Positions 1,353-38,259 of a stretch of 38,259 bases of DNA are shown here, piece after piece. A program made the translations under genes and the position numbers. Origin of the DNA: a virus; IMG/VR virus record IMGVR_UViG_3300035183_000281, positions 1-38,259 of that record; one strand, given 5' to 3'. Position 1 is the first letter of the stretch. The number at the start of each line of letters is the position of its first letter. The notes below the pieces were generated by a model. The model was not told the origin of the DNA. It made no database searches and saw nothing but the letters and a program-made list of their open reading frames with translations.

Positions 1353-1437
1353 CCTCATACCCCTCAGGCGCACCCCGCAGCCACAGCGCGATCCCGCCGA
1401 ACAACACCACCAACAAACCGACTACAACCCATATCAT
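1306..1437 (-). CDS. Single-pass membrane micro-protein, 43 aa
   Basis: First gene after the strong promoter at 1473-1501, with GGAGG 5 nt before ATG 1437. Residues 2-18 form a hydrophobic segment (IWVVVGLLVVLFGGIALW), followed by a short acidic/His tail. It overlaps the next small gene. Such early phage micro-proteins often act at the host membrane, but nothing here shows a specific role. Confidence 0.6.
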   Translation of the reverse strand: MIWVVVGLLVVLFGGIALWLRGAPEGYEDEHGFHYGSGDHVDG

Positions 1438-1864: not shown

Positions 1865-1879
1865 GCGGCCTCCTGTAAG

Positions 1880-5079: not shown

Positions 5080-5401
5080 TCGTATCTCCTTCCTGATATT
5101 CGCGGACCTGTCGCATCCACCACGGAGCAGTGACCAGCAGAATCACCGCGTACAGCATCACCCGAGGAGCCTCAACCACCAGCGCCACGATCTCATCGTC
5201 CTCGCAGATCATGTAGTACAGCACCAGTCCCACCAGCACCGCCGCCACCCAAGGCCACCAGGCCAGCGCCGCCGTCCACGCCTCGACCGTGTTCGTGTGG
5301 ACTGTGACCCAGATCGGCGCGCCGATCAATAGCGCCAACAGCCCGTCGATAGTCAGCGCCAGTGGCAGGTGTCTCTGAACCTTCTCAATCTCTTTATCCA
5401 T
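5072..5401 (-). CDS. Polytopic membrane protein, 109 aa
   Basis: Three hydrophobic stretches (res ~12-33, ~44-64, ~74-95) separated by short loops, with a charged N-terminus (MDKEIEKVQRH) and C-terminus. It overlaps both neighbours by 8 nt. No family recognised. Confidence 0.65.
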   Translation of the reverse strand: MDKEIEKVQRHLPLALTIDGLLALLIGAPIWVTVHTNTVEAWTAALAWWPWVAAVLVGLVLYYMICEDDEIVALVVEAPRVMLYAVILLVTAPWWMRQVREYQEGDTNE

Positions 5402-5756
5402 GGCTCGGCTCCTTCCAGCGCGGGTCCTGGGCCTGATATTCCCAAGGGGATATGATCACTCCGTTTGGGGTGGGCCATTCATCACAGGTATGGCCATTTA
5501 CCGTCACCACTCGCGGGTCATTGATGTACTCTGCAGGCACACCCTGCGTTTGCAGGTAGGCCCGCTTGCGCTCCACCCAACTGGGATGCGCATCCTCCCA
5601 GGCCCGCTCCGCCGCCTGGCGCTCCGCCTCGCGCTGGCTGTTCGGATACTTGCTCCGCCATCCCCACAGCGCCCAGACCAGCCAGGCTGAAAATCCCAGA
5701 AACAGGATCCCGCAGATCAACGGCACGAACGGCAGCAACATTTCATCTGTGATCAT
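5394..5756 (-). CDS. N-terminally anchored membrane protein, 120 aa
   Basis: One hydrophobic segment (res ~7-33, ending LVWALWGW), then a charged helical stretch (QREAERQAAERAWEDA) and a Pro/Trp-rich tail. Preceded by AGGAGG. ATG 5756 overlaps the stop of the small frame before it (ATGA). Function unknown. Confidence 0.65.
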   Translation of the reverse strand: MITDEMLLPFVPLICGILFLGFSAWLVWALWGWRSKYPNSQREAERQAAERAWEDAHPSWVERKRAYLQTQGVPAEYINDPRVVTVNGHTCDEWPTPNGVIISPWEYQAQDPRWKEPSHG

Positions 5757-6425: not shown

Positions 6426-8294
6426 CTATCGCGCTCCTTCCAGCCCAAGTTGACCGTCCTCGTGTCCGTACCACTTCTTCCGCTCCTCACGGAAAGCCGC
6501 ATCCGCAGCCGAAGGTGTGGACAGACTCACCACCACGCCCTGCTCCGACCTCGGCTTGCTCCCGCTTTCCAGCCAGCTCACACCCCAGCGTTCGCATAGG
6601 CCGCGCACCCGTTCCTCCTCGTCCTTCATATTCACGTAAGCCGTCCCCTTGTATTGGGGCAGCCCGTCCGTCGCGCGGATCGTCTTCAGGTTCAGGAACT
6701 TCTTCATCAGTCCGCTCAGCTTGCGGCTCTTGGCCTTGAAGGCCGTCTTTTCCTCGCCATCCTCATCGTCCGAATCCCCCATCTGACGGTTCTGCTCATC
6801 CACGATCTCGTTCGTCGCCAGCGCAATGTCCTTCAGATATACGCGGTCCGCGTCCTCGGGGCGGTCGCTTACAGGGCCCCATGCCCACGCCCGCATCAAA
6901 CCCTCCAGCACCCTTGCCGTAAAGGTCGAATACCGCTCACTGCGCCGTTCTTCCGTCACCGCCGCCAGGTATTGGCGCACCATCTCGCGCCCGCGCTCGC
7001 TCTTCATTACCGTCATCAGGCTCAGCGTCACCTGCCCCGTGCGCGCGTCCATCGCGCGGTCCACCGAGCTCAGGTCCACCTGCGCGTCCTTCTGCATGTT
7101 GTGCATTCGATACGTATGCAGCGCGTTGCGAATGCCCAGGCATTCCCGCTCATAGACCTCCACGGGCGGCAGGTCCAGCGGGATCCTCGGGTGCGGCTGG
7201 ATCGGCAGCATCTCCTTCGTCAAACAGCGGCTGGCCGTCGCCTCGTCTTGGAAGTCCTTGCGCATCCCGATGATCTTCGGCCCGAACACGTCGAACGCCG
7301 CCGCATCGAAGTTCCCGTCCGCATTCTTCTCCGAGCGCAGGATCGGCTGGCCCTTTTCGTTCCCGCCGTTCAGGATCTTCGCGATCATGCTCGCCTCGTC
7401 GCTCTGGCTGAAGTCCGCCTCGTCCAGCACCAGCGTCGAACCGCTGAACATATCCAGGATGCGGAACAGCGAACTTGCGCTCGACCCCGCGTTCGTCATG
7501 ATCGGCTGATGGCAAATCGGCCCCAGCGTCTTCAGCAGGCGGCTCTTGCCCGTGCCATAGTCTCCCAGCGCACGCAGATATGCCACCGTGCGGAACTGCG
7601 TCGCCAGAAACGTGAAAAATGGATAGATCATGCACAACTGTTCGAACGTCTCGTCCGTCCCGAAGTCGAAATATCGATAGTTGTGCGCCTTGATCGCGAA
7701 CAATAATTTCTCCTCGTCCTTCAGTTCCGTCATCTCACTCGGCAGCAGTATCACCCGCTTGCGGATGATGTTATTCGCGGGGATCGGCTTCACGATCCGC
7801 CCCTGGATCATCACCTTGTCCATGCGGTCTTCCAGGTGCCCGTCGGGGAAGCGCACCGCCAGGTAGGTGCGGTCCTGTTCCTGGTCATATTCCAGCCCGA
7901 TCAGGTGCTCGAACAGCCACCCGCCCGTCGTGTACACGGGTTCACCGTCGTCCTCCTCGTCTCCCTTTTTCTTCTTCGGCGCACCCACCTTCAAATGATC
8001 GTTCCAGGCCGCCTTCGAAATCCCCAGCGCCTCGCATAGACCATCCTTGAACGCCGCGCGGTCGCCCTCGTCCAGGGTTGCCACCCCATTCTTGAAGAAG
8101 CCCTTCAGCGCCTCGCTCTTCTCGCTCAGGTTCGGGATCCCCCCGATCTCCTCCGCCCAGTGGAAGATGTACGGCCTGGCCGCCTGCAGCCAGCCCGCCG
8201 CCTTCTCGGCCTGCTTCTCGGGCGCCATCCCCAGCCGCACCCATTCCTGCAATTGCGCGTTCGCGTCCTTGATGATTGCCTTATGATTCGTCAT
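6426..8294 (-). CDS. Phage replicative helicase / AAA+-like ATPase, ~622 aa
   Basis: Walker A GDYGTGKSR (about res 244-252) and Walker B TLVLDEAD (about 287-294) are followed by a region resembling DnaB-fork/D5-type phage ATPases that act after a separate primase. The N-terminal ~120 residues form a helical domain ending in a KKKKGDEEDDGE linker; the C-terminal region has a winged-helix-like section. Start taken at ATG 8294 (MTNHKAIIKD), with GAGG 7 nt upstream and an ATGA overlap with the methyltransferase remnant; ATG 8318 is an alternative. Probably unwinds phage DNA with the adjacent primase. Confidence 0.75.
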   Translation of the reverse strand: MTNHKAIIKDANAQLQEWVRLGMAPEKQAEKAAGWLQAARPYIFHWAEEIGGIPNLSEKSEALKGFFKNGVATLDEGDRAAFKDGLCEALGISKAAWNDHLKVGAPKKKKGDEEDDGEPVYTTGGWLFEHLIGLEYDQEQDRTYLAVRFPDGHLEDRMDKVMIQGRIVKPIPANNIIRKRVILLPSEMTELKDEEKLLFAIKAHNYRYFDFGTDETFEQLCMIYPFFTFLATQFRTVAYLRALGDYGTGKSRLLKTLGPICHQPIMTNAGSSASSLFRILDMFSGSTLVLDEADFSQSDEASMIAKILNGGNEKGQPILRSEKNADGNFDAAAFDVFGPKIIGMRKDFQDEATASRCLTKEMLPIQPHPRIPLDLPPVEVYERECLGIRNALHTYRMHNMQKDAQVDLSSVDRAMDARTGQVTLSLMTVMKSERGREMVRQYLAAVTEERRSERYSTFTARVLEGLMRAWAWGPVSDRPEDADRVYLKDIALATNEIVDEQNRQMGDSDDEDGEEKTAFKAKSRKLSGLMKKFLNLKTIRATDGLPQYKGTAYVNMKDEEERVRGLCERWGVSWLESGSKPRSEQGVVVSLSTPSAADAAFREERKKWYGHEDGQLGLEGAR

Positions 8295-8602
8295 TGCTCG
8301 CCTCGTAATCTGCTCCATGCTTCTCCAGCCACTCGCGGAACCTGACCGTTTCCAATGGCTCTAAGGCGGTCCACCCTGACGACATCCACGAGTCCAGCCC
8401 AGGGCCGCCCGTCGAAGGTGAAGGCGTCGTCCCAGATGGGAGCATCGTCAAGGTATCAGTCTCGGATGCGCGCCTTAAGGACTTCGACGGCATACTTGTC
8501 CCATTCGACATAGCAGAGGTTTCGCCATCCAAGCAGATACTTGGTCCCGAGCAGTCCGCCTCCTGCTCCAGAGAAAAGGGAGAGTTCGGTAAGTGCAGCC
8601 AT
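8291..8602 (-). pseudogene. Remnant of a C5-cytosine DNA methyltransferase (internal deletion + TGA)
   Basis: The frame from ATG 8602 reads the typical start of a Dcm-type methyltransferase: LSLFSGAGGGLLGT (motif I, SAM binding), then CYVEWDKYAVEVL (motif II). After ARIRD comes TGA, and the same frame continues YLDDAPIWDD...GLVDVV. It then jumps directly to the C-terminal family signature VDRLRAIGNGQVPRVA (motif X). The PCQ catalytic motif, target recognition domain and motifs VI-IX are missing, so ~250 residues have been lost. The final TGA overlaps the helicase ATG (ATGA), so this was once a regular operon gene. A 108-codon ORF in another frame (8281-8607) covers the same DNA. Confidence 0.8.
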
Positions 8603-8603
8603 G

Positions 8604-9782
8604 TCATTCTTCATCTTCCTTATCTTCGGACTTTGTAACGTCTTCGCGCGGCATCAACCGTGTCATCTTCACGATCTGCACCTTCGCGCCCAGCAATTTG
8701 GCCGCATCTCGGATCCCCTTCTGCCCCGCTTCGTCCTCGTCCAGGTGTAGGTACAGTGCGGGGTGCTTCCGCAGGTATCCCACCAGCCGCAGCAGCCGTT
8801 CGCGGTCCTCATCCCCCAAATGCTGGGGGTCCCCCAGTAGACCACACCACGCCATCGCGCCATGTCCCCACTGCCCCCACGTGATCGCGTCTCCCTGCCC
8901 TTCCACCATCACCAGCGGGCGGTCCGTCCGATGCGCGCGGTTGAAGTACACCTGCTTCGGACCAGCCAGCAGCTTGTACGGGTTGAAGCTCTTCCACTCT
9001 CGCGCCTTCCCCTCGCTCTTGATCGTGTCGTGCCCTGGCAGATGCCTGCGGCTCAGGTACACCACCTTGCCCTTGTGCACGTGCGAATAGATCACCCCAG
9101 GCACGTCCATCAGCCCGTGGATTCTCCCATTCACAATCCACTCTGGATCAAAATCAGGATGGACCCGCAATCCTTGCAGGCTAGCCCAATGGTCTACGTC
9201 CCCTCGAAACCCCAGCACCGCTACCGCTGCGGGGCTGGTCACATCCACCCCGAACAGGTTGAACTCCCCCACCATGTCCCGCACCTGTTCCTCGCTCTTC
9301 CGCCCGCTGAACCCCACCATCTCCGTCTGGATCGTTTCATCACTCCAGCCCCTACCGCGCACGTACGCCAGCGCCTCGGCATCCGCCGCCGTCCCAACCT
9401 TCTCGTCCCCCACCAGCCACCGATGGAAGACCGCCGCCGCCACCGAAAAAGCATCAGCAGTAGCACGTGCCCGCTGAACCTCACCCTCATTCACCGCCTG
9501 GAATTTCGGCATCTCAATGTGCGTCCGTTGCGCCAGGATGCGCAGCGCCTCCCCGAACTCGCAGCCCTTCTCCCGCATCACCCACCCGAACACGTCCCCG
9601 TGCCAGTTGTGGCTGTACCAGAACGCCCGCTGCATGTCCGTCCGCACCTTCAGGCTGTCATGCTGTACCCCAACCCGCAGCCGCCCATGTCCCCGCAAAC
9701 GGATCCCGCTCTCCTCGATCACCGTCTCGATCGGGTTCGCGTCCCGCACCTGCTCGATAAAATCCTCAAAATTGATGGCCAT
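8604..9782 (-). CDS. DnaG-type primase with Toprim domain, zinc ligands lost, 392 aa
   Basis: The N-terminal 90 residues align in layout with the CHC2 zinc-binding domain (GDVFGWVMREKGCEFGEALRIL matches the end of that domain). The expected zinc Cys positions are occupied by Gln-His-Asp (~40-42) and Tyr-Ser-His (~56-58). The Toprim part has VMVEGQGDAITW (Glu ~294) and LHLDEDEAG (Asp ~348 and ~350), the metal-binding acidic residues of primase catalysis. It makes RNA primers for the helicase encoded downstream. ATG 9782 with GGAG upstream. Confidence 0.8.
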   Translation of the reverse strand: MAINFEDFIEQVRDANPIETVIEESGIRLRGHGRLRVGVQHDSLKVRTDMQRAFWYSHNWHGDVFGWVMREKGCEFGEALRILAQRTHIEMPKFQAVNEGEVQRARATADAFSVAAAVFHRWLVGDEKVGTAADAEALAYVRGRGWSDETIQTEMVGFSGRKSEEQVRDMVGEFNLFGVDVTSPAAVAVLGFRGDVDHWASLQGLRVHPDFDPEWIVNGRIHGLMDVPGVIYSHVHKGKVVYLSRRHLPGHDTIKSEGKAREWKSFNPYKLLAGPKQVYFNRAHRTDRPLVMVEGQGDAITWGQWGHGAMAWCGLLGDPQHLGDEDRERLLRLVGYLRKHPALYLHLDEDEAGQKGIRDAAKLLGAKVQIVKMTRLMPREDVTKSEDKEDEE

Positions 9783-9800
9783 GCGTTTCTCCAGCGTTTT

Positions 9801-9932
9801 TCACAAAATTTTGTAGATTTGCGAGGCCGCTCGCCTCGCTACCCCTGTCAAAACTCGGGCGAAATCCCCGAGCACCCCCTCCCCCCTTCTCCCCAGCCTT
9901 ATGCGACACAACCCAAGCGCCTTATCAGCCAT
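9801..9932 (-). CDS. Small basic protein, 43 aa (doubtful)
   Basis: ATG 9932 overlaps the end of the 42-aa gene by 8 nt and runs to TGA 9801, just before the primase. The product is Arg-rich (MADKALGLCRIRLGRR...). Two hairpins (GCGAGGC/GCCTCGC and CTCGGG/CCCGAG) lie inside the frame, so this may be structured non-coding leader instead. Confidence 0.3.
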   Translation of the reverse strand: MADKALGLCRIRLGRRGEGVLGDFARVLTGVARRAASQIYKIL

Positions 9933-10053
9933 TCTTCGCCGTCAACAACCGCGCTACATCGTGGTTTACGTCGCATAATCCGCATTCTCCGACACACAAA
10001 ACTTTTCTGACGGCTTCCCAGCCCACGCCCCATAACGCATATAAAGTGAACAT
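9925..10053 (-). CDS. Small Cys-rich protein, 42 aa
   Basis: Start at ATG 10053 (MFTLYALWGVGWEAVRK...), with AAGGAAG ~8 nt upstream; the first codons contain the AGTGAACATT iteron. Two or three Cys (VLCVGECGLC) may bind metal. Lies between the recombinase and primase genes on the same strand. No family recognised. Confidence 0.45.
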   Translation of the reverse strand: MFTLYALWGVGWEAVRKVLCVGECGLCDVNHDVARLLTAKNG

Positions 10054-10054
10054 T
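10045..10054. repeat. Outlying AGTGAACATT iteron
   Basis: Exact inverse copy of the AATGTTCACT box at 6250-6259. The boxes therefore flank the primase-helicase module on both sides, consistent with an initiator or regulator binding site that also controls replication gene expression. Confidence 0.45.
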
Positions 10055-10135
10055 GCGATTCTTCCTTCTACTGACTTTAAAATAATGAGCCGTCCACTGC
10101 CTTGACCACTCATCCGCTGGCGTGGGCTGGGATAG

Positions 10136-11107
10136 TTAAATTCCTTCGATGGCCGCTTCCAGTTCTGCCCAACCTGCGCGGAGATAGCGGCGCGTAGTCT
10201 CGACCGACTCATGGCCGAGCAGGTCGCGGATTTGCTCGATGGGCGTCCCGCGCTGTTCGAGCCGCTTGGCGAATGTGTAGCGCAACCAGTGCGGACTCAA
10301 CCCAGGGATACGACACTCCGCTCCCAGGTCAGAGACGACGCGCTCAATATGGCGCGTGGTCAAACGCTCGCTGGATTTGCCCACAAACAATCCATTAGTA
10401 GGAGCATTCCCGCGGACGTTCACCCATCCATCCAGGGCGCGCCTAACGGTCAGGTTGAGTGGAACGCGGCGCTCCTTTGCTCCCTTGCCGTTGCGGACCC
10501 TGACCGATCCACTACGCTCGCCGATCGTAATGTCAGTTATATCCAGCATGGACGCCTCTTCGACGCGCAGGCCAGCCAACAACATTACCGCCACAACTGC
10601 CTGGTTGCGGACCGCAGTCCAATGCTCAAACGCTGTCACTGCTTCGCGCGCGCGGCGTTCAAGACGATGTACCAGGTAGCCAAATTCCTGGTCGGTGAGA
10701 CTGCGATAACGCGCAGGGCGTACGCCTGCCTTTTTCGGCTCGATCCCATCCATCAGGTTGGCATAGGACGCGCCCAGCATGGAATCAACCCACTGGCAAA
10801 AGACGCCGAGCGCCCACATGCGGCTATTCCATGTGTCGGGAGCGACACGGGCCTCCTCCAGGGAGTGATGACGCCAGGCGTGTAGATCGAAATTTGTAAT
10901 TTTGTGCGGCTCGAAGATGTCGCCGTATTTGGCTTCCCACCACATCGCAAATACCCGCACATGCTGGCAAGCCGCCTTGACCGATTTCTCGCTCGGCGTC
11001 CGATGGATAGGGCTGATTTTGCGATAATCCTGCTCCAGCCATGCGCGGAATTGCATTTGCCAATCTTGAGCAATCTGGAAATGGGCAATTGTTTGAGTTT
11101 TCATCAT
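10136..11107 (-). CDS. Tyrosine recombinase (XerC/D-like), 323 aa
   Basis: The catalytic set is visible: Arg181 (LLAGLRVEEA), Lys208 region (NGKGAKERR), His273-x-x-Arg276 (HWLRYTF), His299 (LGHES) and nucleophile Tyr308 (RRYL). The N-terminal ~110 residues form the usual SAM-like core-binding domain. Length and motifs fit Xer/phage integrases. Its ATG overlaps the preceding stop (ATGA). With a large serine recombinase on the same genome, a role as dimer resolvase for the circular form is attractive; integration is the alternative. It lacks the clear extra helix expected of integron IntI between Arg and His-x-x-Arg, but I could not align it. Confidence 0.85.
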   Translation of the reverse strand: MMKTQTIAHFQIAQDWQMQFRAWLEQDYRKISPIHRTPSEKSVKAACQHVRVFAMWWEAKYGDIFEPHKITNFDLHAWRHHSLEEARVAPDTWNSRMWALGVFCQWVDSMLGASYANLMDGIEPKKAGVRPARYRSLTDQEFGYLVHRLERRAREAVTAFEHWTAVRNQAVVAVMLLAGLRVEEASMLDITDITIGERSGSVRVRNGKGAKERRVPLNLTVRRALDGWVNVRGNAPTNGLFVGKSSERLTTRHIERVVSDLGAECRIPGLSPHWLRYTFAKRLEQRGTPIEQIRDLLGHESVETTRRYLRAGWAELEAAIEGI

Positions 11108-14122: not shown

Positions 14123-14827
14123 ATGCCGTTTCGCTTTCGCCGCATTCTCTCGCTTGGCAAAGGCTTACGCATCAATCTCAGCAAATCTGGCCTTAGCACA
14201 TCTATTGGCAAGCCTGGAGCCAGCCTCAATCTCGGCTCGCGTCCGCGCGTCACTATCAGCGCGCCTGGCACAGGCATGTCCTACTCTCAGCCCATCGGGT
14301 CAGGCCGCGTTCCAGCGTCCAGGCAGACCAAGACCATCATTACCCTGGTCATCAGTTTGTTTCTGCTCTGCTTCATTACCGCCTGTTGCATCGGCGTAAT
14401 ATTCAGCCAAAACGAAGACCCATCTACGAAGACCCGCACGGACCCGATCCCTCTCTCCACTGATTTCCTCCCTACTTACATTGCCGCTACCTACTCTGCC
14501 GCGTCCACACAAACCCGCATCGCTGAACCGTTTACATCTACCCCCTTTATCTACAATTCCCCCGTGCCCGTCATCACATCCACTTATTCTTATCTTCCCA
14601 CCCTCACTCCGATCCCATCCAACACACCTTTCGTCCTCACCAGCCCCACGCTTTACTTCACAGGTGATTCAGATTGTCCATGCACGGGCGACCTGCTCGA
14701 TTGCAAAGACTTTCAAACCCATCAGCAGGCGCAGGCTTGCTATAACAAATGTCTTGCTGCTGGGGTTGGGGACATTCATAGAATAGATCAGGAAGGCGAC
14801 GGGCAAGCCTGCGAATCTCTCCCATGA
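14123..14827 (+). CDS. DUF4236 membrane protein with C-terminal Excalibur-like domain, 234 aa
   Basis: The N-terminus MPFRFRRILSLGKGLRINLS followed by Ser/Gly-rich repeats is the DUF4236 signature. Then come a single transmembrane segment (~res 71-95), a Ser/Thr/Pro-rich extracellular linker (~95-180), and a terminal ~45-residue domain with Cys residues ending DQEGDGQACESLP, the Excalibur calcium-binding pattern (DxDGxxCE). Likely displayed outside the lysogen cell. The combination is host-like and looks acquired. Its TGA overlaps the recombinase ATG (ATGA 14824-14827), preceded by GGAAGG-type sequence. Confidence 0.75.
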   Translation: MPFRFRRILSLGKGLRINLSKSGLSTSIGKPGASLNLGSRPRVTISAPGTGMSYSQPIGSGRVPASRQTKTIITLVISLFLLCFITACCIGVIFSQNEDPSTKTRTDPIPLSTDFLPTYIAATYSAASTQTRIAEPFTSTPFIYNSPVPVITSTYSYLPTLTPIPSNTPFVLTSPTLYFTGDSDCPCTGDLLDCKDFQTHQQAQACYNKCLAAGVGDIHRIDQEGDGQACESLP

Positions 14828-16479
14828 CATACCTCTCGCCACCCACTGCCCTGCCGCCTGGTACCCTCGTCGATTGCTACGTCCGCGACTCGGGCGGCCT
14901 GCGCCAGGAACAATCCACCGAACAGCAACTCCGCCAGATCGAAACCTACTGCCTCCAGCACGGGCTCGTCCTCCGTCACCGCTTCATCGATGCCGCCCGT
15001 TCTGGAGGCTCCGCCGTGGGCCGCGAAGAATTCGAGCGCATGGTCGAACTCTACAGCCAACCCTCCAACCGACCCCACGGCCTGCTCCTCTGGAACTACG
15101 CCCGCTTCGCCCGCAACTTCGACGACGCCGTGTACTTCAAGGCCACCCTGCGCGGCATCTACAAGATGACCGTCCACTCCCTCAACGACCACATCCCCGA
15201 AGGCGACTATGGCCGCATCGCCGAATTCTTCATCGACTTCTCCAACGAAGAAAAGCGCAAGCAGACCTCCAAAGACACCAAACGCGGACTGCGCGAACTG
15301 GTCGAGATCTACCACTGCGTCCCAGGCATTCCCCCGCGCGGATTCAAGCGCGAACCCGTCCACATCGGCACCTACCGCGATGGAACGCCCCGCAAAGCCC
15401 ACCGCTGGGTCCCCGACCCCGAGCTGGCTCCCCGCGTCCTACGCGCCTTCGAGCTGCGCGCCGCGGGCGCATCCCTGCACGTCATCAACAAAGAGACCCG
15501 CCTCTACAAATCCCAAAACTGCTTCGCCACCTTTTGGCCCAACAAATTGTACATAGGTATCTTGGAGTATGGTGATATCGTTGTAGAAGACTACTGTCCG
15601 CCCATCGTACCCCGCGATCTCTGGGAAAAGGTCCAGCAAGTCCAGAACCACTACACCCCCGCCGCTTCCCGCAACTCGGGCAGCATCCACGATCCGCGCC
15701 GCGCCAACAGTCGCTTCCTCCTCTCGGGCCTGGCCAAATGCGGCCAGTGTGGCTCTCCCCTCTTCGGACACTCCTCCAAGAACCGCAGCGGCTCCCTCTC
15801 CGACAGTTACATCTGCACCCGCGCCTACCGCAACCGCGACTGTACCAAAGCCCGCATCCCGCGCGCCATCCTCGAAGATGAAGTCCAGCGCCTGATGCGG
15901 GATGTCGTCCTCCAGCCCGAGAACATGCTCCACCTCGCCGAAGCCCTCACCGCCAGCCAGACCGACCAACTCGAAGCGGACCGCCGCCGCCAGTCTGAAC
16001 TGATGCATGATCTCGCCACCGTCCGCCGCCAGATCGACAACGTCACCGACGCCATCGCCGAACGCTCCAAATCCACCGCCCTCCTCAGCCGCCTCGCAGA
16101 CCTCGAACAAAAGCACGCGGACCTGGTGTTGGCTCAGTCCGAGCATGCCCGCACCGCCCTGCAGCCCCTCCCCGACATCCACCCCGACCTCCTGCGCCAC
16201 ATCCTCGACGACATGCGCGCCACCCTCGCCGAAGGCGAACCCGCCGAACGACAGTTCCTCCTGCGCGCCCTCCTGCACGAAGTTCGTGTAAAGCGCGAAG
16301 GCCACACCCTGCACGGCCAGATCGAATACTTCTACCCGCCCGAATCCCCCCCAAAAGCCCACGGCCCCGATAAGCGCGCAGTGTCTACACCTCGCACCTC
16401 GTCGGGGCCGCCTTTTCGTAGACACAGCATCATCGTCCACGAATTCGCGGCAGAAATAAAACACTCCCATCCGAAATGA
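14824..16479 (+). CDS. Large serine recombinase (phage integrase), 551 aa
   Basis: N-terminal resolvase domain with YVRDSG (nucleophile Ser23) and LLLWNYARFARNFDDA. Next is the recombinase domain (~155-275, PRGFKREP...), then a zinc ribbon with Cys306, Cys309, Cys331 and Cys340, and a long coiled coil (~380-445) that governs directionality in this family. Length is normal. Family members carry out attP x attB integration. It is the last gene of the lysogeny operon, and its stop lies in the loop/right arm of the terminator that follows. attP is expected close by (16.4-16.7 kb), but I could not define it. Confidence 0.92.
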   Translation: MTYLSPPTALPPGTLVDCYVRDSGGLRQEQSTEQQLRQIETYCLQHGLVLRHRFIDAARSGGSAVGREEFERMVELYSQPSNRPHGLLLWNYARFARNFDDAVYFKATLRGIYKMTVHSLNDHIPEGDYGRIAEFFIDFSNEEKRKQTSKDTKRGLRELVEIYHCVPGIPPRGFKREPVHIGTYRDGTPRKAHRWVPDPELAPRVLRAFELRAAGASLHVINKETRLYKSQNCFATFWPNKLYIGILEYGDIVVEDYCPPIVPRDLWEKVQQVQNHYTPAASRNSGSIHDPRRANSRFLLSGLAKCGQCGSPLFGHSSKNRSGSLSDSYICTRAYRNRDCTKARIPRAILEDEVQRLMRDVVLQPENMLHLAEALTASQTDQLEADRRRQSELMHDLATVRRQIDNVTDAIAERSKSTALLSRLADLEQKHADLVLAQSEHARTALQPLPDIHPDLLRHILDDMRATLAEGEPAERQFLLRALLHEVRVKREGHTLHGQIEYFYPPESPPKAHGPDKRAVSTPRTSSGPPFRRHSIIVHEFAAEIKHSHPK

Positions 16480-29717: not shown

Positions 29718-31448
29718 CTACGCCTGAATCTTGATGTACGCGCCCTTGTTCGCCACAGGTGATTCGGTCGCGTTGAATTCCTCGGTGTAATACTGATCGG
29801 CGGCAACCAGTTTGCCGTTGCTGTAGGTCGGGAATGGACCGCGCACCTGCATCGGCTGGAAAACGCGGTGGGCCACCAGCTGGCGGTTCACCACCAGCGC
29901 ATACGACTCGCTGAATTCCGGCGATGAGAAAATGGGCAGGCCCTTGATTCCGCCCGCGAACCCAGCCGCGTTCAGGAACGCATTCGGGAAGCCCGTGCGC
30001 GTGAAGCCCGTGGCCCAATTCGAGAGCAGGTCAGCATTCGTCATGCTCATGATGATCGCGGTCGGCTCCCAGAATCGGTTCGCCACCAGAACTTTCGCCG
30101 AACCCAATTTTGCAGCCATCAGGCTGATGTCATCGGCAGAAATATCATGCGTACCGCCGCTGTTATTGGCCACAGAGAGCACGGAAGTCAGCGCCTTGTA
30201 CAGGATACCCTGGTCAATCTTGCGGCGTGTCTGACGGATCAGGTTTGCCATCGTGCGGGCAACCGCATCCCAGCCGAGTTGCGAGCGGCTGAATACCACC
30301 GCCTCGCGCGTGATCCGATCGGCCAGGCGGTCCGCCGCGGCCTCGATGGTTACGTACGAAAGAGTCACCTTGGCGCGCTCGATCTCGGTATTTTCGCCCT
30401 TGCGGATGGCAGTGTACTGATAATCTACCAGCACGTCATTGGTATCAATGCTCCCAGCCGCCAGAAACATGATTTTGCCATTGGCATAATCAACCACGTA
30501 ATCCGTCCCTTCCACATACGTGGTGCCAGCGGGATTACTGGTCACAGTGACTGTGCCAGGAGTCAGGCGCTTATTCGCCAGGTCATACCACACGCCTTCC
30601 GCGCCGCCCGTTACCACCTCATCGGTAACAGAGGCAGAGTAACCCGTCTCGCCGCTGAATGCTTCGAAATACAGGCGATCAGGGCTGTTATCCATGACGC
30701 CAAAATCGAACACGTTGGCGGCAATCAAATCGGGGAATGCCTCTTCGATGATGGCACGGCTGACGCTGTACGGCAGATTCAGGTCGCTGGTAGTTTCGGC
30801 CTCATTAAATTGACGCGCCTCGTTTATCAGGTGATGTTGATATAGCCTATCGAAACGCGCCAGTACCTGTTGAGTGAAAACCGCGGCAGGCGTTTCAGCG
30901 CGCTCTTCCAGTTTGCGTTTGGCGCGCATTTCGCTCTTCCGCACCGATTCGGTCAGCTCGAATGCCACGCGCCCGAACTCAGGCGTGCCGGTTTCGGTTT
31001 CCAGCACATCGCCAACAACCTTCACGCTGGGCTTATTGAAGCCCATATTGTTCAACTTCAAAGCCGCGGCAATGGCGCCATACTCCTTGCGTTTGGCTTC
31101 GGCAATTGCCTTCACTTCATCAACAGATTTTGCGCCGCTGGCTTTCATGGCCTCGACAAACTGCTTGTTCAATTTCTCGCCAAATGGCAGGTCTTTGCAA
31201 ACCTCGGCAATGGTTTTTTCGATTTCAGCCTGCCGTTGCGCCTCCTCGAATTTGCGCGCTTTTTCAGCGGTCGCTTTCAAGGTTTCGGCGATATTGGCGG
31301 TCTCGTCAATGCCCAGCGCCTTGCGGACGTTCTCTTCCAGCGCCTTCAATTGTGCATCACCCAGTTTCTTCACCTGGGCCTCGGTGAGGCCCTCGAATAA
31401 TTCGGGGTGCTCTTTCATAGCTTTCAACAATTCTTCCAGTGTCGTCAT
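29718..31448 (-). CDS. Nested scaffold + major capsid protein from an internal start (576 aa)
   Basis: Inside the protease-capsid gene, GGAGG (31458-31454) stands 5 nt before ATG 31448 (MTTLEELLKAMKEHPELF...), a textbook ribosome site in frame. Independent initiation here would give scaffold-MCP without the protease, needed in far larger amounts. Compare the nested C/Nu3 arrangement of lambda. Confidence 0.6.
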   Translation of the reverse strand: MTTLEELLKAMKEHPELFEGLTEAQVKKLGDAQLKALEENVRKALGIDETANIAETLKATAEKARKFEEAQRQAEIEKTIAEVCKDLPFGEKLNKQFVEAMKASGAKSVDEVKAIAEAKRKEYGAIAAALKLNNMGFNKPSVKVVGDVLETETGTPEFGRVAFELTESVRKSEMRAKRKLEERAETPAAVFTQQVLARFDRLYQHHLINEARQFNEAETTSDLNLPYSVSRAIIEEAFPDLIAANVFDFGVMDNSPDRLYFEAFSGETGYSASVTDEVVTGGAEGVWYDLANKRLTPGTVTVTSNPAGTTYVEGTDYVVDYANGKIMFLAAGSIDTNDVLVDYQYTAIRKGENTEIERAKVTLSYVTIEAAADRLADRITREAVVFSRSQLGWDAVARTMANLIRQTRRKIDQGILYKALTSVLSVANNSGGTHDISADDISLMAAKLGSAKVLVANRFWEPTAIIMSMTNADLLSNWATGFTRTGFPNAFLNAAGFAGGIKGLPIFSSPEFSESYALVVNRQLVAHRVFQPMQVRGPFPTYSNGKLVAADQYYTEEFNATESPVANKGAYIKIQA

Positions 31449-32027
31449 TTCATCCTCCATAGATGATTGATTTGATTCGATTAACATGGCAGCATTCTCG
31501 AAAGACGGCTCCAACACCAGGTCAAACCCGGTAATATGTAGCTCAGTCACCTCAAAGATTTTCTCGCTGCCTTCTTTCACGATCTTGCCATCGCCATAGC
31601 CGCGCAGACTCACGCCTGGCATAACGCCGCCCTCCATCAGAGTCAGGATGTCCCTGCCTTTGCTGGTTTCCAGAATGCGCCCCGTCACATCCACGCGCTG
31701 ACCGTCGAATGAAACTTCATCCCATTTCGTCACGGTCTCCAGCAAATTCGGACGCCCGCCTTTGTCGGACGGATGTTCCGCCTCGCCGAGAATCTGAACC
31801 GCTCGACCCTGTCCTGCGCTCTCGTTCAGATGACCGCGTAATTCGGCGACCGCCGCTTCGAGTACAGGACTTGGATAACGGCGACCATTGCCATTGACAA
31901 TATTCGCCGTGATAGCCCCTTCGATACGGATCCTGCGCGGTTTTCCCTCCTGCGCCTCTTCCAGCGCAACACGCGCATTCACTCGTTCTTCAAATCTTTT
32001 TCGTCTCTTCCCAGTTCCATCATTCAT
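29718..32027 (-). CDS. Prohead protease - scaffold - major capsid protein fusion, 769 aa
   Basis: Residues ~30-180 resemble prohead core proteases of the T4 gp21 type: NGNGRRYPSPVLEAAV, ILGEAEHPSD (His85) and MPGVSLRGYG (Ser140) are the likely catalytic positions. Residues ~195-340 are Glu/Lys/Ala-rich coiled coil, a scaffold (delta) region. Residues ~345-769 are an HK97-fold capsid: PYSVSRAIIEEAFPDLIAA, a beta insertion (~500-550), and a C-terminal FRVFQPMQV-like spine. In most phages these are two or three genes. Self-cleavage after assembly would be required to free the mature subunit. ATG overlaps TerL's stop (ATGA). Confidence 0.8.
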   Translation of the reverse strand: MNDGTGKRRKRFEERVNARVALEEAQEGKPRRIRIEGAITANIVNGNGRRYPSPVLEAAVAELRGHLNESAGQGRAVQILGEAEHPSDKGGRPNLLETVTKWDEVSFDGQRVDVTGRILETSKGRDILTLMEGGVMPGVSLRGYGDGKIVKEGSEKIFEVTELHITGFDLVLEPSFENAAMLIESNQSSMEDEMTTLEELLKAMKEHPELFEGLTEAQVKKLGDAQLKALEENVRKALGIDETANIAETLKATAEKARKFEEAQRQAEIEKTIAEVCKDLPFGEKLNKQFVEAMKASGAKSVDEVKAIAEAKRKEYGAIAAALKLNNMGFNKPSVKVVGDVLETETGTPEFGRVAFELTESVRKSEMRAKRKLEERAETPAAVFTQQVLARFDRLYQHHLINEARQFNEAETTSDLNLPYSVSRAIIEEAFPDLIAANVFDFGVMDNSPDRLYFEAFSGETGYSASVTDEVVTGGAEGVWYDLANKRLTPGTVTVTSNPAGTTYVEGTDYVVDYANGKIMFLAAGSIDTNDVLVDYQYTAIRKGENTEIERAKVTLSYVTIEAAADRLADRITREAVVFSRSQLGWDAVARTMANLIRQTRRKIDQGILYKALTSVLSVANNSGGTHDISADDISLMAAKLGSAKVLVANRFWEPTAIIMSMTNADLLSNWATGFTRTGFPNAFLNAAGFAGGIKGLPIFSSPEFSESYALVVNRQLVAHRVFQPMQVRGPFPTYSNGKLVAADQYYTEEFNATESPVANKGAYIKIQA

Positions 32028-33610
32028 GGATACACTCCTTCAAATAATGATTCGGCATAAATAACTGCCGCAGGCGCGCTTGCCGTCCGTAGCGGCCCGC
32101 CATCCTCGGCAATCATCTGCACGCCGCCGCTGACCGTATCCACGTCATCGTCGTGCCTGCCCTTCGGGAACGAAGTCGCCTCGCGGATGAAATCCAAATT
32201 CCAACCGCCGCGCACCAGCTTCACATGTCCCTGCTTCGCTCGTAATTGCCAGGCCCTGGCGCGTTCCACCTTGTCTCCCAGCGGCTTCACCCCGCGGATT
32301 CGCACCTTCACCAGCGCAGGGTTCTGCAAAAACTGCTTCACCACCAGCCGCTGGAACGCCACGTCCTCGATGCCCCACTCCACGCCTTGCTCCGCATCTG
32401 AAAGCATCGCCGCGCGGACCATGCCTAGAAACCCGTCCAGGTTGCGCTCCTTGATGCGGTCCCGCAGCCACAGGTCACCCGTCTTTTCATCCAGCGCCAC
32501 CGCGATGGACGAGTTTCGGTCTGCCGTCGTGCTCTCTCCCAGCGCCAGGTCCACATAACGGAACCACTGCAAACCATCGGGCGCCCGCTCCTCGATTCTG
32601 AAATCCACATCGTCGAAGAACTCGCCCACCGCCATGCGCGGCATCTGTTGGAACAACGCCTCGAAGTCGTAATCCAGCATGTTCGACTTCGTGCGCAGCA
32701 CCTTCTCCGCGCTCGACCGTTCGGGCCATAGCGCCTCGCCTGCCTTGCGTCCCAGCGGATCCCCCTCCATGGGCAGGTACGTCCCGCGCAGCAGGTTCTC
32801 ACGGAATTCTTCCTGCGTCTTCGGGTACTGGTTCTCCTCCAGCGCCAGCGCGGGCAGGAACACCACCTCCCACTGGTCTGAATCGGGGTCGCTCACCATC
32901 TGCGTCAGCAGTTGACCCACCAGGTCTTCCTGATCCCAGCGCGTGTGCATGATGATGATCGCCGCCCCTGGCGTGTTCGCCACGCGCGGATACACCACGC
33001 TGCGGTACCAGCTCATCACCTTGCGGCGATACGTCTCGCTCTCGGCATCCTCGCGGCTCTTGAACGGGTCGTCGATCACCACCAGGTTGGCGGGGCGTCC
33101 TGTGATACCGCCGCCCACGCCTGCCGCGAACACCGACCCGCGATGCTCCTTCAAGTTCCACGAGACTACGCTGCGGCTCTCCGAGCTCAACTCCACGGGA
33201 TCATCCACCGCCGAGCGCGCCCCGAAGATGTTGGCATACGGCTCGCTTGCCACGTAATTGCGCGTGATGCGGCTGTTCTCGGTCGCCAGGTCTGCGCCGT
33301 AACTCGTCAGGATGATGCGCGAATCGGGCAGGTCGCCCAGCAGCCAGGCGGGGAACAAACGGCTGGTCTGTTCCGTCTTGCCATATTGCGGAGGCTCGCA
33401 CACGATCAGCCTTCCAATCCCCTCCCTGCCCTGCGTTTCGATATACCGCTTCACCGCTTCCAGCTTCTTCGCCAGATAGATGTGATGCTGCGCGGGCTTG
33501 TACCACGGCGCTACATACACGCTGAAATCGATCAGGCTGCGCCGCGCCAATTCCCTGCGCGCCAGCTCGACCTGCGCCTGCGTCGGAGTGACCTTCGCCC
33601 GTCCGCTCAT
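32024..33610 (-). CDS. terL: Terminase large subunit, 528 aa
   Basis: ATPase: Walker A-type PPQYGKT (res 73-79), Walker B LVVIDDP (176-182), and coupling-like IIIMHTRWDQEDLVG (218-232). Nuclease: RYVDLALGES (Asp354), GIEDVAF (Glu/Asp ~414-416) and HDDDVDTVSG (~490-498) give the RNase H-type acidic triad. Length is normal. Belongs to the broad group typified by SYGADLATENSRITRNYV. It packages DNA into the portal. ATGA overlaps with TerS upstream and capsid downstream. Confidence 0.93.
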   Translation of the reverse strand: MSGRAKVTPTQAQVELARRELARRSLIDFSVYVAPWYKPAQHHIYLAKKLEAVKRYIETQGREGIGRLIVCEPPQYGKTEQTSRLFPAWLLGDLPDSRIILTSYGADLATENSRITRNYVASEPYANIFGARSAVDDPVELSSESRSVVSWNLKEHRGSVFAAGVGGGITGRPANLVVIDDPFKSREDAESETYRRKVMSWYRSVVYPRVANTPGAAIIIMHTRWDQEDLVGQLLTQMVSDPDSDQWEVVFLPALALEENQYPKTQEEFRENLLRGTYLPMEGDPLGRKAGEALWPERSSAEKVLRTKSNMLDYDFEALFQQMPRMAVGEFFDDVDFRIEERAPDGLQWFRYVDLALGESTTADRNSSIAVALDEKTGDLWLRDRIKERNLDGFLGMVRAAMLSDAEQGVEWGIEDVAFQRLVVKQFLQNPALVKVRIRGVKPLGDKVERARAWQLRAKQGHVKLVRGGWNLDFIREATSFPKGRHDDDVDTVSGGVQMIAEDGGPLRTASAPAAVIYAESLFEGVYP

Positions 33611-35347: not shown

Positions 35348-36291
35348 TCGAACACCTCGATCAGCTTCATCCCGTTGTAGGCCGTGCACATCCAGCCCTC
35401 ACGCGCACGCCCATCCACCTCCACCACATGCACCCAGGCGCCCTCGGTCTTGTCGAACAGCAAATGCCCGCCCTTGCGCACTGCATTCCCCAGCGGATTC
35501 GAATCCGTGGTCGGGAACTCCCGCACCTTCACCCCATCCCGCGCCACCACCAGCCCCTCGCGCCGCTTCGTCTCACTCGGAGGCGGCTCGACGGGTGGGA
35601 TGTAATCCGCATCTAGATACATCTTGAACTGCTCTTCGGTCCCGTTGAAGAAATTGAAATCTACGTTAGCGGGCCGTGTGACCACCTCGCCCGTGATGCC
35701 TGGCAGCGTCTGCTTATCGTCGTACTGCCAGAACGTCCAACTCTTCCAGCCCCGCAGCGGAACCAGCCCTGCCTTCTCGGGCGTCATCGTCGTATCCGCC
35801 GCATGGGGATAGAACGCCAGCCACAGGTCATACTGCGCGAAATATTGGTGCCGCAGCACGTCCACCGCCCACGGACCCTGATCGCGCCAAAAATAAAATC
35901 CTGTATAGATGATCTGCTTCTTGTCTGGCACCAGGGTCTTGACCCGTTCCAGGAAGTCGTACCAGTTGCGCCACCCATGCCACGGACCCTTGGCATATTT
36001 CTCGATGTCGATCACTAGTGGCAGCTCGCCCAGGTCCCCGCCTAATACCTCCACGAACTTCTCCGCCTGCCGCTTCGGGTTCACCGTCTGATAGCGCGGG
36101 TCATAGAACCAATACGCGCCCCACGGAATGTTCACGCTCTCCGCCCCTGCCCGATGCCGATTGAAATGCGTGTCAGGCACGATTCCCTGCCCCGCGCGGA
36201 TGAACGCAAAATTCGCCAGGCCCGTCCCCTTCACGGTCTCCCAGTCGATGTTCGGCTCATAGAATGACACGTCAATGCCGTGATACATCAT
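35344..36291 (-). CDS. Endolysin: GH25 muramidase with C-terminal SH3 domain, 315 aa
   Basis: GH25 signatures: YHGIDVSFYEPNIDWE (Asp7), PLVIDIEKYAKG (Asp95, Glu97 catalytic) and ANVDFNFFNG (Asp211). Residues ~1-225 form the TIM barrel. A Pro-rich linker (~230-240) leads to an SH3b-like wall-binding domain (~245-312). It cleaves the N-acetylmuramic acid to N-acetylglucosamine bond of the host wall. No signal peptide, so export needs a holin. ATGA overlaps on both sides. Confidence 0.9.
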   Translation of the reverse strand: MMYHGIDVSFYEPNIDWETVKGTGLANFAFIRAGQGIVPDTHFNRHRAGAESVNIPWGAYWFYDPRYQTVNPKRQAEKFVEVLGGDLGELPLVIDIEKYAKGPWHGWRNWYDFLERVKTLVPDKKQIIYTGFYFWRDQGPWAVDVLRHQYFAQYDLWLAFYPHAADTTMTPEKAGLVPLRGWKSWTFWQYDDKQTLPGITGEVVTRPANVDFNFFNGTEEQFKMYLDADYIPPVEPPPSETKRREGLVVARDGVKVREFPTTDSNPLGNAVRKGGHLLFDKTEGAWVHVVEVDGRAREGWMCTAYNGMKLIEVFE

Positions 36292-36621: not shown

Positions 36622-37086
36622 TTATTTGTTTTCAGTCCTGGACTTCAACCACTTGACCGCGCTCGGCAGTCCCTCGAAGACCTTCTGAAACAAAATGTTG
36701 TAGATCAGCATGGCGAACGCCGTCGCGGGCGCAATGGCCGTCAGCAGGGCCTGTGCATAATTCAACGCCGAAGACACGCACGTCAGCGGGTCTGTGCAGG
36801 ATGTAAAGGTTGGAAGCGCGATGCCGTCCCATTGGATGGCCAGCCCGAAGGCGATCACATACAGCAATACGGTCAGCCAGTCGCCCTTCAGGTTGATCTG
36901 AGGCCAGCGCTTCGCAGCCAGCTTCAGCAGGTACACCAGCACCGTCGAGACCAGACCGATCACGTACAACTGCACGGGGTCGGTGATCCCGCCGCCCTCC
37001 TGATGCAGACCCAGCGCCATCACAGGCACAGCCAGAATCAAACTCAACAGAACGACCATGCTCACGATTGCCGCAAACTTTTTCAT
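36622..37086 (-). CDS. Holin-like polytopic membrane protein, 154 aa
   Basis: Start set at ATG 37086 (MKKFAAIVSMVVLLSLILAV...), with AAGGAG upstream; the longer frame reads a REP hairpin. An N-terminal signal-like hydrophobic segment is followed by three more (res ~38-58, ~72-90, ~110-132), with a Cys pair in the loop between the last two. First gene of the late operon, just before the coiled-coil protein and endolysin. Holin role inferred from topology and place. Confidence 0.6.
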   Translation of the reverse strand: MKKFAAIVSMVVLLSLILAVPVMALGLHQEGGGITDPVQLYVIGLVSTVLVYLLKLAAKRWPQINLKGDWLTVLLYVIAFGLAIQWDGIALPTFTSCTDPLTCVSSALNYAQALLTAIAPATAFAMLIYNILFQKVFEGLPSAVKWLKSRTENK

Positions 37087-37102
37087 CTCGATCTCCTTGT
37101 TT

Positions 37103-37128
37103 CCTCTCCCCTCGCCCATCGGGAGAGG
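37103..37128. repeat. REP-like hairpin before the holin-like gene
   Basis: Arms CCTCTCCC / GGGAGAGG around a 10-nt loop, followed by GGCTGGGGGTGAG. Related to the element at 34520-34555 and lies in the late-operon leader. Confidence 0.6.
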
Positions 37129-37145
37129 GGCTGGGGGTGAGAGAA

Positions 37146-37181
37146 TAAAAAGCACCCGATGTCACGAAGACATCGGGCGCT
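37146..37181 (-). terminator. Intrinsic terminator in the late leader
   Basis: On the minus strand a 13-bp stem (AGCGCCCGATGTC / GACATCGGGTGCT, one mismatch) with a TTCGT loop is followed by TTTTTA: a standard rho-independent terminator. It lies between the promoter at 37371 and the first late gene at 37086. The remaining leader (37184-37340) holds further short hairpins (CCCTC/GAGGG types) and no gene. Confidence 0.8.
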
Positions 37182-37341
37182 ACTCGACATTCCTTCCCTC
37201 ACGCGGAGGGATTGCGCTCTGATTCTCTCCCTCCTGGAGGGTGACCGCATCTGGGGGCGCAGATTGACCTCTCGGTCGCGCGGCCACCCTTGGCAGGGGG
37301 GTGGGGGCTCGGTTAGTTGTTAAGGCTAACCTACATAGTCA

Positions 37342-37371
37342 TTTTTAACATATTTGGCTAATTCTTGTCAA
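37342..37371 (-). promoter_or_regulatory. Late promoter, TTGACA-N17/18-TAAAA, with GGTTAG/CTAACC operator
   Basis: TCTTGACA (-35 at 37371-37366) and TAAAAA (37347-37342, 18-nt spacer), then downstream GGTTAG-N9-CTAACC (37332-37312). Shares the TCTTGACA core and CTAA/TTAG half-sites with the other two promoters. Expected to drive the ~20-kb lysis-head-tail operon. Confidence 0.6.
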
Positions 37372-37380
37372 GAGTATCCA

Positions 37381-37400
37381 CCCTGAGCGCAGTCGAAGGG
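37381..37400. repeat. CCCTGAGCGCAGTCGAAGGG repeat, copy 3
   Basis: 20-bp imperfect palindrome, shortest copy of the family at 2346-2375 and 33636-33666, just upstream of the late promoter. Confidence 0.65.
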
Positions 37401-37455: not shown

Positions 37456-37545
37456 GCCCAACGGCGAGCGTTACCCGCATGGGCGGATAGCACTCGTCCA
37501 AAAATTACCTACGCCCGCCCATGTCGGGTGAACGCATTGTTAGCC
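37456..37545 (-). other. attC-like recombination site 1 (90 bp)
   Basis: Minus-strand ends are GGCTAAC and GTTGGGC. The arms ACCCGACATGGGCGG and CCGCCCATGCGGGT pair, with one extrahelical A (+37524), and outer GCGTTC/AACGC pair with an extrahelical C. The loop is ~28 nt. The bulged base lies exactly 15 nt from the plus-strand right core (37539), as in the other two sites. The 3' end of the 68-aa gene lies inside it, as in integron cassettes. Confidence 0.8.
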
Positions 37546-37715
37546 CGCGCCACTGCTTCGGCAAATGCTTTAGCCATAGCGATACCAACATCGTAAATCG
37601 CAATGCCGAGTAAAACGCCTTGATAAACCGTAGTTCCTTCAAGTTCTTTATTTTCATCAAGCCATTTTTGCTTTTCGGATTTTTCTTTTTCGTAGTACGC
37701 AATAATATCATTCAT
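37509..37715 (-). CDS. Cassette protein, 68 aa, unknown
   Basis: ATG 37715 (MNDIIAYYEKEKSEKQKW...), with GGAG 10 nt upstream. Charged helix, then a hydrophobic section (VYQGVLLGIAIYDVGIAMAKAF). The last ~11 residues (NNAFTRHGRA) are encoded by attC site 1, the usual architecture of an integron cassette ORF. The start region is more AT-rich than the phage genes, in line with separate origin. No family recognised. Confidence 0.65.
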   Translation of the reverse strand: MNDIIAYYEKEKSEKQKWLDENKELEGTTVYQGVLLGIAIYDVGIAMAKAFAEAVARANNAFTRHGRA

Positions 37716-37751
37716 ATTCGTTTTTCTCCGTACGCTGATTATAAGACAGCA

Positions 37752-37842
37752 GGCTAACGGTTTGCGTTAGTTGCGGTGGGCAAAGCCACCTGTCCGATTG
37801 AATCGCCAGCCTGCCCACCGTCAACTGCACGCGGTATTGGGC
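37752..37842 (-). other. attC-like recombination site 2 (91 bp)
   Basis: Minus-strand ends are GCCCAAT and GTTAGCC. The arms GTTGACGGTGGGCA and TGCCCACCGCAAC pair, with an extrahelical A (+37821, 15 nt from the core at 37836). The outer GCGTGC/AACGC part has the two-base versus one-base asymmetry also seen in site 3. It follows the tRNA-like element 37850-37998 and closes an ORF-less cassette. Confidence 0.75.
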
Positions 37843-37849
37843 GGCTATT

Positions 37850-37998
37850 TCTGCCGAGAATGACTCGAACCTTCACTTCGCAAGTATTCCCGTATCCCGC
37901 GCAGTACGTTTATTTCACCGCTTCATCTGCGCCAGTCACGCTTTATTTCTTGCGCTCCCCTTTATCGGGGTGCGTCTTGCCTTTCCGCCATCGGCAGA
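37850..37998 (-). ncRNA. tRNA(Leu)-like element with expanded anticodon region, 149 nt
   Basis: Minus strand: acceptor strands TCTGCCGA (37998-37991) and TCGGCAGA (37857-37850) pair perfectly. They are followed by TG (positions 8-9) and a Leu-like D-arm GCG-GAAAGGCAAGA-CGC. Near the 3' side are a variable-arm hairpin ACTT-GCG-AAGT and a T-arm GAAGG-TTCGAGT-CATTC (one mismatch) directly abutting the acceptor. Where a 17-nt anticodon arm should be, there are ~75 nt starting CCCCGATAAAGGGG and ending CGGGA. No CCA is encoded. It could be an intron-bearing or degenerate tRNA, or a tRNA-mimicking RNA. It fills the whole cassette between attC sites 3 and 2; no ORF of note. Confidence 0.5.
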
Positions 37999-38006
37999 GG
38001 ACAGCC

Positions 38007-38132
38007 GCCCAACGGTTATGCTTTACTGGCGGGGCGGTTCTAGCAAAGTATCATCGCCAGCCAGTACATCAGCGGGCGTGTTCCCGCTGACTTTCGGGGC
38101 AGTAGCCCCGTCCAGTGCAAGCGGTGTTGGGC
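38007..38132 (-). other. attC-like recombination site 3 (126 bp)
   Basis: Best-formed site: both ends are exact core consensus (GCCCAAC at 38007-38013 and GTTGGGC at 38126-38132). The arms ACTGGACGGGGC and GCCCCGCCAGT pair, with an extrahelical A (+38111, 15 nt from the core). The long central part has a secondary hairpin (AGCGGG/CCCGCT). The 3' end of the 77-aa gene lies inside. Confidence 0.85.
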
Positions 38133-38256
38133 GTATGTGACAAGTGCAAGACCAGAAATACCGCCTAGTTGCAACAACGATGGGGGTTTCGCATTCCTTG
38201 CAAACCCACACCCATTGCAGACCGATTGCTTTTGGTTTTACAAGGTTATTATTCAT
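38023..38256 (-). CDS. Cassette zinc-ribbon protein, 77 aa
   Basis: ATG 38256 (MNNNLVKPKAIGLQWVWVCK...). CKEC and SCTCH form a possible four-ligand zinc site in the first ~40 residues; the last ~35 residues are read through attC site 3. No Shine-Dalgarno, but in the circular form its ATG overlaps the preceding stop (ATGA), so translation would be coupled to the early-left operon. Function unknown. Confidence 0.65.
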   Translation of the reverse strand: MNNNLVKPKAIGLQWVWVCKECETPIVVATRRYFWSCTCHIRPTPLALDGATAPKVSGNTPADVLAGDDTLLEPPRQ

Positions 38257-38259
38257 ACG

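Follow-up and report, generated by a model that had tools for sequence, protein, structure and literature searches.

A probable phage-borne array of integron cassettes in an Anaerolineales virus record, with complete integrons in related phages

The entire IMG/VR virus record IMGVR_UViG_3300035183_000281, a contig of 38,259 bp referred to below as the window, carries at least four attC sites of the integron type and parts of three gene cassettes. Profile searches found in it the genes of a tailed phage (terminase, protease-capsid, portal, tail, a serine integrase and a separate XerC-like recombinase), and the phage is probably temperate. Integrons are usually regarded as bacterial gene-capture platforms that are acquired by phages only occasionally. 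The reading that fits best, and that we hold with high confidence, is that the window is the nearly complete, circularly permuted genome of an Anaerolineales (Chloroflexota) phage, its contig broken inside an array of integron cassettes. The array would lie between the early and late operons, relatives of the phage have complete integrons, and the integron integrase gene, intI, has probably been lost here. The sequence evidence behind this reading comprises the structure of the attC sites, the borders of the cassettes, the recurrence of single cassettes in other viral contigs with a break at the crossover point, and the complete integrons of related phages.

The attC sites and cassettes of the window

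Three attC sites lie within 677 bp (37456-38132) and a fourth at the opposite end of the contig. All are on the minus strand, which is the attC top strand; the bottom strand that folds is the plus strand. The first, attC 1 (37456-37545), has R'' GGCTAAC at 37545-37539, R' GTTGGGC at 37462-37456 and extrahelical bases at 37530 and 37524; its top strand reads GGCTAAC-AAT-GCGTT-c-ACCCG-a-CATGGGCGG ... CCGCCCATG-CGGGT-AACGC-TCGCC-GTTGGGC, with unpaired bases in lower case. The second, attC 2 (37752-37842), has extrahelical bases at 37827 and 37821 and reads GCCCAAT-ACC-GCGTG-c-AGTTG-a-CGGTGGGC ... GCCCACCG-CAACT-AACGC-AAACC-GTTAGCC, and attC 3 (38007-38132), with extrahelical bases at 38117 and 38111, reads GCCCAAC-ACC-GCTTG-c-ACTGG-a-CGGGGC ... 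GCCCCG-CCAGT-AAAGC-ATAACC-GTTGGGC. The fourth, attC 4 (1184-1274), has R'' GCCCAAC, R' GTTGCGT and extrahelical bases at 1259 and 1253. With small departures the cores of all four sites fit RYYYAAC / GTTRRRY, one or two degenerate positions being off in R'' of attC 1 and in R' of attC 2 and attC 4. Each site has two extrahelical bases 6 nt apart, which are C and A when read on the top strand and G and T on the bottom one; a known Shewanella phage integron, taken as a control, has the same layout.

The original prediction had proposed, from the letters alone, the three clustered sites, each with a single unpaired base. Their coordinates hold, as do the unpaired T residues at +37524, +37821 and +38111; missed were the bottom-strand G at +37530, +37827 and +38117, and the fourth site at 1274-1184. 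These sites were examined with a covariance model, R1, for which 35 attC arms were taken from IMG/VR contigs other than the window and its terminase relatives. Run on both strands, R1 gave 60.8 bits (E 6e-14) for attC 1, 64.1 bits (E 8.6e-15) for attC 2, 49.6 bits (E 5e-11) for attC 3 and 51.2 bits (E 2e-11) for attC 4, with no other match in the window up to E=10 on either strand; the E-values are rough, the calibration having been short, though the gap is large. R1 is specific for the present type of attC and missed the sites in a Shewanella phage and in a cyanobacterial plasmid. Covariation within its training set is high and was set aside as evidence, the sites having been chosen by a structure scan. 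Folding of the bottom strand, also proposed with the prediction, gave structures more stable than those of shuffled sequences for attC 1, 2 and 3 (z -4.15, -2.57 and -4.49). When the window was dinucleotide-shuffled 40 times, a geometry scan for two extrahelical bases, used in place of an earlier one-bulge version that performed poorly, never gave scores as high as those of the four sites. Searches of the window against Rfam at gathering scores, and of the array by BLAST against plasmid and phage collections, returned no match.

The cassettes follow the expected order of gene and then attC, as had been predicted. Cassette 1 (37462-37757, minus strand) extends from the TTAGCC that follows attC 2 as far as the G of attC 1, and its open reading frame (ORF) of 68 aa (37509-37715) stops within attC 1. 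The record IMGVR_UViG_3300009503_000382 holds a 93% identical protein, the DNA from 37762 to 37453 being 95.8% identical. Cassette 2 (37758-38012, minus strand) has the crossover points of attC 3 and attC 2 as its borders and contains no clear gene above 40 aa. Cassette 3 (38013-38259, minus strand) starts beyond the contig end; its ORF of 77 aa (38023-38256) stops within attC 3, and the protein is 96% identical in IMGVR_UViG_3300035183_000242 and 62% identical in another contig. In the former record, a contig with a 101-bp terminal repeat, the DNA matches that of the window at 98.8% identity from 38259 to 38011. The identity ends after ...AACCGTT (CCGTT|RRRY), where the window continues with GGGCGGCTG and the other contig with AGACCCATA; this break is the integron crossover (G|TT). 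At the other end of the window an ORF of 154 aa (608-1072, minus strand), directly after attC 4, is the probable gene of the next cassette, and it has a homologue downstream of a phage-type intI in another locus (L412).

In integrated cassettes the R' of an attC belongs to the next cassette and is expected to pair with the next R''. Within the window R' of attC 2 (GTTAGCC) pairs fully with R'' of attC 1 (GGCTAAC). Over all loci, full pairing between such neighbours was found in 108 of 164 adjacent pairs, compared with 19.6 +/- 3.9 for shuffled partners (maximum 32 in 2000 shuffles), and only 18 of the 164 showed a full match of R' with its own R''.

Three further IMG/VR records with terminal repeats and other terminases (G323, G350 and G354) carry attC arrays in which no intI was detected; one of them, G323, has a cassette in common with the window.

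Complete integrons in related phages

Relatives of the window phage were collected by similarity of the large terminase subunit (32024-33610, minus strand; phrog_38, E 1e-92) and used to close the phage map; such relatives are also found in metagenome-assembled genomes (MAGs) of Anaerolineales. In one of them, G010, the late genes and the serine integrase are followed by early genes that end with the counterparts of window genes 1880-2332 and 1568-1864, and then by the cassette region, the counterpart of window gene 36622-37155, TerS and TerL; the homologue of the window gene at 25857 spans the contig ends in G010. The window has the same order, but interrupted within the cassette region, which puts the array within the phage genome itself, with the early operon on one side and the late operon on the other. 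The two early genes (1568-2332, minus strand) form the upstream border of the cassette region in the gene maps of relatives, and the gene at 36622-37155 (177 aa, minus strand), the first conserved one on the late side, forms the downstream border in several of them, with 34-47% identity in G003, G004, G010, G013, G019, G328 and G348. The array lies on the coding strand of both operons. Phage genes flank the arrays on both sides in G010, G017, G328, G348, G349, G356 and G364, and in the window by way of its two ends. The cassettes had been predicted to sit at the end of an early operon, which places them correctly among phage operons; they are actually found between the early and late operons and are cut by the contig end.

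At this fixed spot, related circular phages, prophages in Anaerolineales MAGs and the GenBank entry KX853513 carry a complete integron, with intI, an attI core at its 3' end, the cassettes and then the late operon all on a single strand. IntI was called at the curated cut-off of TIGR02249 (265 bits), which was exceeded in 11 of 55 viral records tested, comprising six terminase relatives (G010, G328, G348, G349, G363 and G364) and five other viral contigs. In all of these, intI shares its orientation with the array and late genes. When IMG/VR was searched with seven phage IntIs, 95 relatives resulted, the best 80 of which were considered. Among the matches listed, intI is followed by attC sites in its own orientation at about twenty loci, most of them among the closest to the phage IntIs, whereas at about fifteen others the sites lie on the opposite strand in the usual divergent layout. 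Three records (G343, G345 and G348) have terminal repeats of 127 bp, as in circular assemblies, and three MAG contigs (G224:C11, G294:C6 and G029:C89) have a phage-type IntI surrounded by phage genes; the first is a prophage within a 340-kb contig. In KX853513 (Virus Rctr41k), intI (4680-5678) is annotated as xerD and is followed by six attC sites (6641-10101) with methyltransferase genes, and then by TerS and TerL; the integron is not annotated as such in the public record.

The content of the cassette region varies across these phages while its place is constant, as judged from gene maps and cassette clusters, rather than showing the conserved, invariant hairpins that would have spoken against the prediction. 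In G010, intI (G010:C1:26923-27870) carries a single in-frame TAG in place of a tryptophan, beside an intact three-site array, possibly a step toward the state without intI. Complete integrons, the intI with a stop codon in G010, and the arrays without intI in the window and G017 form a natural series. A second place of insertion exists, since in L355, L363 and G001:C1:1-435 the attC sites (with intI in the first two) lie upstream of a primase gene and not before the late operon.

At the 18 phage-type intI loci in which a first attC could be detected, attI was sought as the complement of that site's R''. In 13 of these, a GTTRRRY core that pairs with the first R'' lies -5 to +23 nt from the stop codon of intI, most commonly directly after the stop (TGA|GTTRRRY) and, in the second of the two phage IntI groups described below, at +13 after GATAAGGATA. 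In KX853513, GTTATGC, one base past the intI stop, is complementary to GCATAAC, the first R'', and the later junctions pair too. The variable RRRY of attI covaries with the first cassette, matching what is predicted for insertion at attI. On the strength of both the position of this complement and its change with the first cassette, attI appears to overlap the 3' end of intI.

A phylogeny of 53 IntIs places the phage sequences in two groups separate from a third that holds 36 chromosomal IntIs of Anaerolineales. Group one contains eight phage sequences, the copy in G294:C6 and one long-branch MAG sequence; group two contains three phage sequences and the copies in G224:C11 and G029:C89, with modest basal support (83/44). 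All three MAG copies inspected within the phage groups are surrounded by phage genes. The IntIs of the complete integrons exceed the family cut-off and have the catalytic residues and the IntI patch; the residues R, K, H, R, H and Y are invariant in seven aligned phage IntIs, and the match of the phage IntI profile to VchIntIA (2a3v) reaches 1.7e-108 and extends over its length. The weak correlation of IntI with TerL identities, given below, suggests that the integron module moves between phages, yet it stays within phages in the present sample. Divergent IntI-like proteins that score below the cut-off (204 and 257 bits) precede attC arrays at G356:C1:13305-14261 and G333:C1:895-1875 and possibly form a third phage lineage.

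Probable loss of intI and alternative readings

The search of the window with TIGR02249 found no IntI. A small ORF of the early operon (1306-1437, minus strand) has a 69% identical counterpart in G349 (35771-35878), directly before intI at 35889; in the window the same ORF is followed by 32 bp and then attC 4. From this comparison, intI and attI would have been deleted between the ORF and attC 4, and intI has probably been lost from the phage. In the relatives, IntI is envisaged to recombine the folded bottom strand of circular cassettes into the attI directly behind its own gene. The newest cassette might then be expressed by read-through of the phage operon, as strand and order suggest, and phages could trade small accessory genes through cassette insertion. 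The cassettes of the window would depend on IntI from another phage or from the host, or else be frozen. An IntI above the cut-off was found in 103 of 301 Anaerolineales genomes, about a third, and a host IntI could thus act in trans on phage cassettes.

The alternative that survives best, which we still consider unlikely, is that the window phage has a complete integron whose intI fell into an unassembled gap between the contig ends. The contig does end within the array, and assemblies are known to be interrupted by attC repeats (PMC9024848). However, intI in relatives comes directly after the early genes and before the array, a place that the window fills with attC 4, 32 bp beyond the small ORF; an intI in the gap would occupy an unusual place.

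Considerably less probable is movement of the cassettes by the phage's own XerC-like tyrosine recombinase (11107-10136) instead of an IntI. This enzyme is present in the window and in most relatives, but its score, 53.7 bits, is below the 265 bits set as the cut-off for an integron integrase; it also occurs equally in relatives in which no attC was found (G006, G007, G013 and G020), and is accompanied by a separate IntI in the phages with active-looking arrays. In most relatives the recombinase (window 10136-11107) is retained beside the serine integrase (14824-16479).

We give slightly less weight still to the cassettes being a host chromosomal cluster of attC sites lacking integron integrase (CALIN) that flanks an integrated prophage. 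The position of the array at the contig end, the frequency of IntI in Anaerolineales genomes and repeats resembling repetitive extragenic palindromes (REP) near 37,100-37,400 would favor this origin. Against it, the arrays of G010, G017 and other relatives are flanked on both sides by phage genes, some on contigs with terminal repeats; attC 4 lies at the opposite end of the window beside early genes; and the phage-type IntIs are separate from the chromosomal ones. The window cassettes were not seen in any chromosomal host array, and the one MAG contig that matches attC 1 (G280:C46) also has phage-like genes. Ordinary conserved phage hairpins (terminators, REP-type repeats or regulatory RNA) are a highly improbable source of the sites: inverted repeats are frequent between phage genes and the REP-like repeats lie nearby, but the R1 scores, the two extrahelical bases at fixed positions, the pairing between neighboring sites, the similarity break at the crossover and the intI beside arrays in relatives all argue otherwise.

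Several observations weigh against the preferred reading of a phage-borne integron array. The window contig terminates within the array, and both the join of its ends and the absence of intI are seen only indirectly; the predicted CALIN state fits this contig, a cluster of attC sites in which no IntI was found, with the same qualification. The R'' of attC 2 ends in AAT instead of AAC, and R' of attC 3 (GTTGGGC) pairs with it at six of seven positions, one base short. No attC was detected in several close relatives (G006, G007, G013, G018, G009 and G020). The window's cassette proteins match nothing in Pfam, PHROG or NCBIfam and have no assigned function. Identities of IntI and TerL correlate weakly (r 0.23, p 0.04), a result that leaves strict vertical inheritance unsupported, and recombination of the arrays by IntI is an activity deduced from sequence features.

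Beyond the window, we think it likely that Anaerolineales phages possess a phage-resident class of integron. It would be defined by IntI lineages confined to phages and prophages, a codirectional intI with attI at its 3' end, a location between the early and late operons that lets captured cassettes be expressed at once by phage transcription, and gene trading among phages, with anti-restriction DNA modification as one main cargo.

Cargo, known systems and genome mosaicism

Clustering of the 81 distinct cassette ORFs gave 73 groups, most without assigned function. Ten are larger; six of these match DNA methylase families (N6_N4_Mtase, C5 twice, D12, Dam and MT-A70) and one, in L363 from position 9916, matches DpdA, of DNA base modification of the 7-deazaguanine type. 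It is a natural inference that such cassettes could shield phage DNA from restriction. Methyltransferases in phage cassettes were also reported by Qi et al. 2023 (PMC9892861).

That study found 17 CALINs and four integron or In0 cases in 10,705 phage genomes, several traced to host or plasmid integrons, and recombined attC sites of virulent phages with IntI1 in E. coli; it mentions no Anaerolineales phage. Phage CALINs, which the prediction called rarely described, had thus appeared in print before. The phages of Qi et al. likewise have attC arrays with or without intI and methyltransferase cassettes, whereas here a group of related phages has intI, attI and array at one operon position, and their IntIs are separate from chromosomal ones. 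Atypical integrons of Treponema also have a codirectional intI, and loss of intI leaving attC sites is described there (PMC3607928); those integrons are chromosomal with no tie to phages, in contrast to an intI in a phage operon with an attI overlapping its 3' end. Chromosomal integrons of Anaerolineales share an IntI of the TIGR02249 family and attC sites of the R1 type, which were matched in at least 26 of the 301 genomes, a lower bound because R1 is specific to one attC type and the number of candidates scored was capped. They differ in having a separate IntI group and, in those inspected (L302 and L307), an intI divergent from the array. KX853513 belongs to the same phage group as the window (TerL about 55-57%) and has the same gene order; it has an intI and the window does not.

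No phage-resident integron lineage was met in a literature search that covered few subscription papers or preprints. Phages with CALINs, and a few with integrons, had been described before, and what would be new is the resident, codirectional lineage: this phage group appears to own a gene-capture system previously met in phages mainly as scattered or host-derived pieces. A phage group that maintained an integrase, attI and array of its own, always at the same site relative to the operons, would make phages owners of integrons. This would provide a direct path for cassette flow between cells and would account for the renewal of small accessory genes such as DNA methylases in these phages.

Exchange is also apparent elsewhere in these genomes. 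The actin-like (ParM/ALP) gene of the window (3350-4327) is 96% identical in G349, whose remaining genes are far more distant, which suggests a recent exchange. Adjoining the cassette region, comparison with L029 (G017) points to strong mosaicism: the capsid to tail tape genes (window 29718-32027) are 95-99% identical, and the terminase just 56%.
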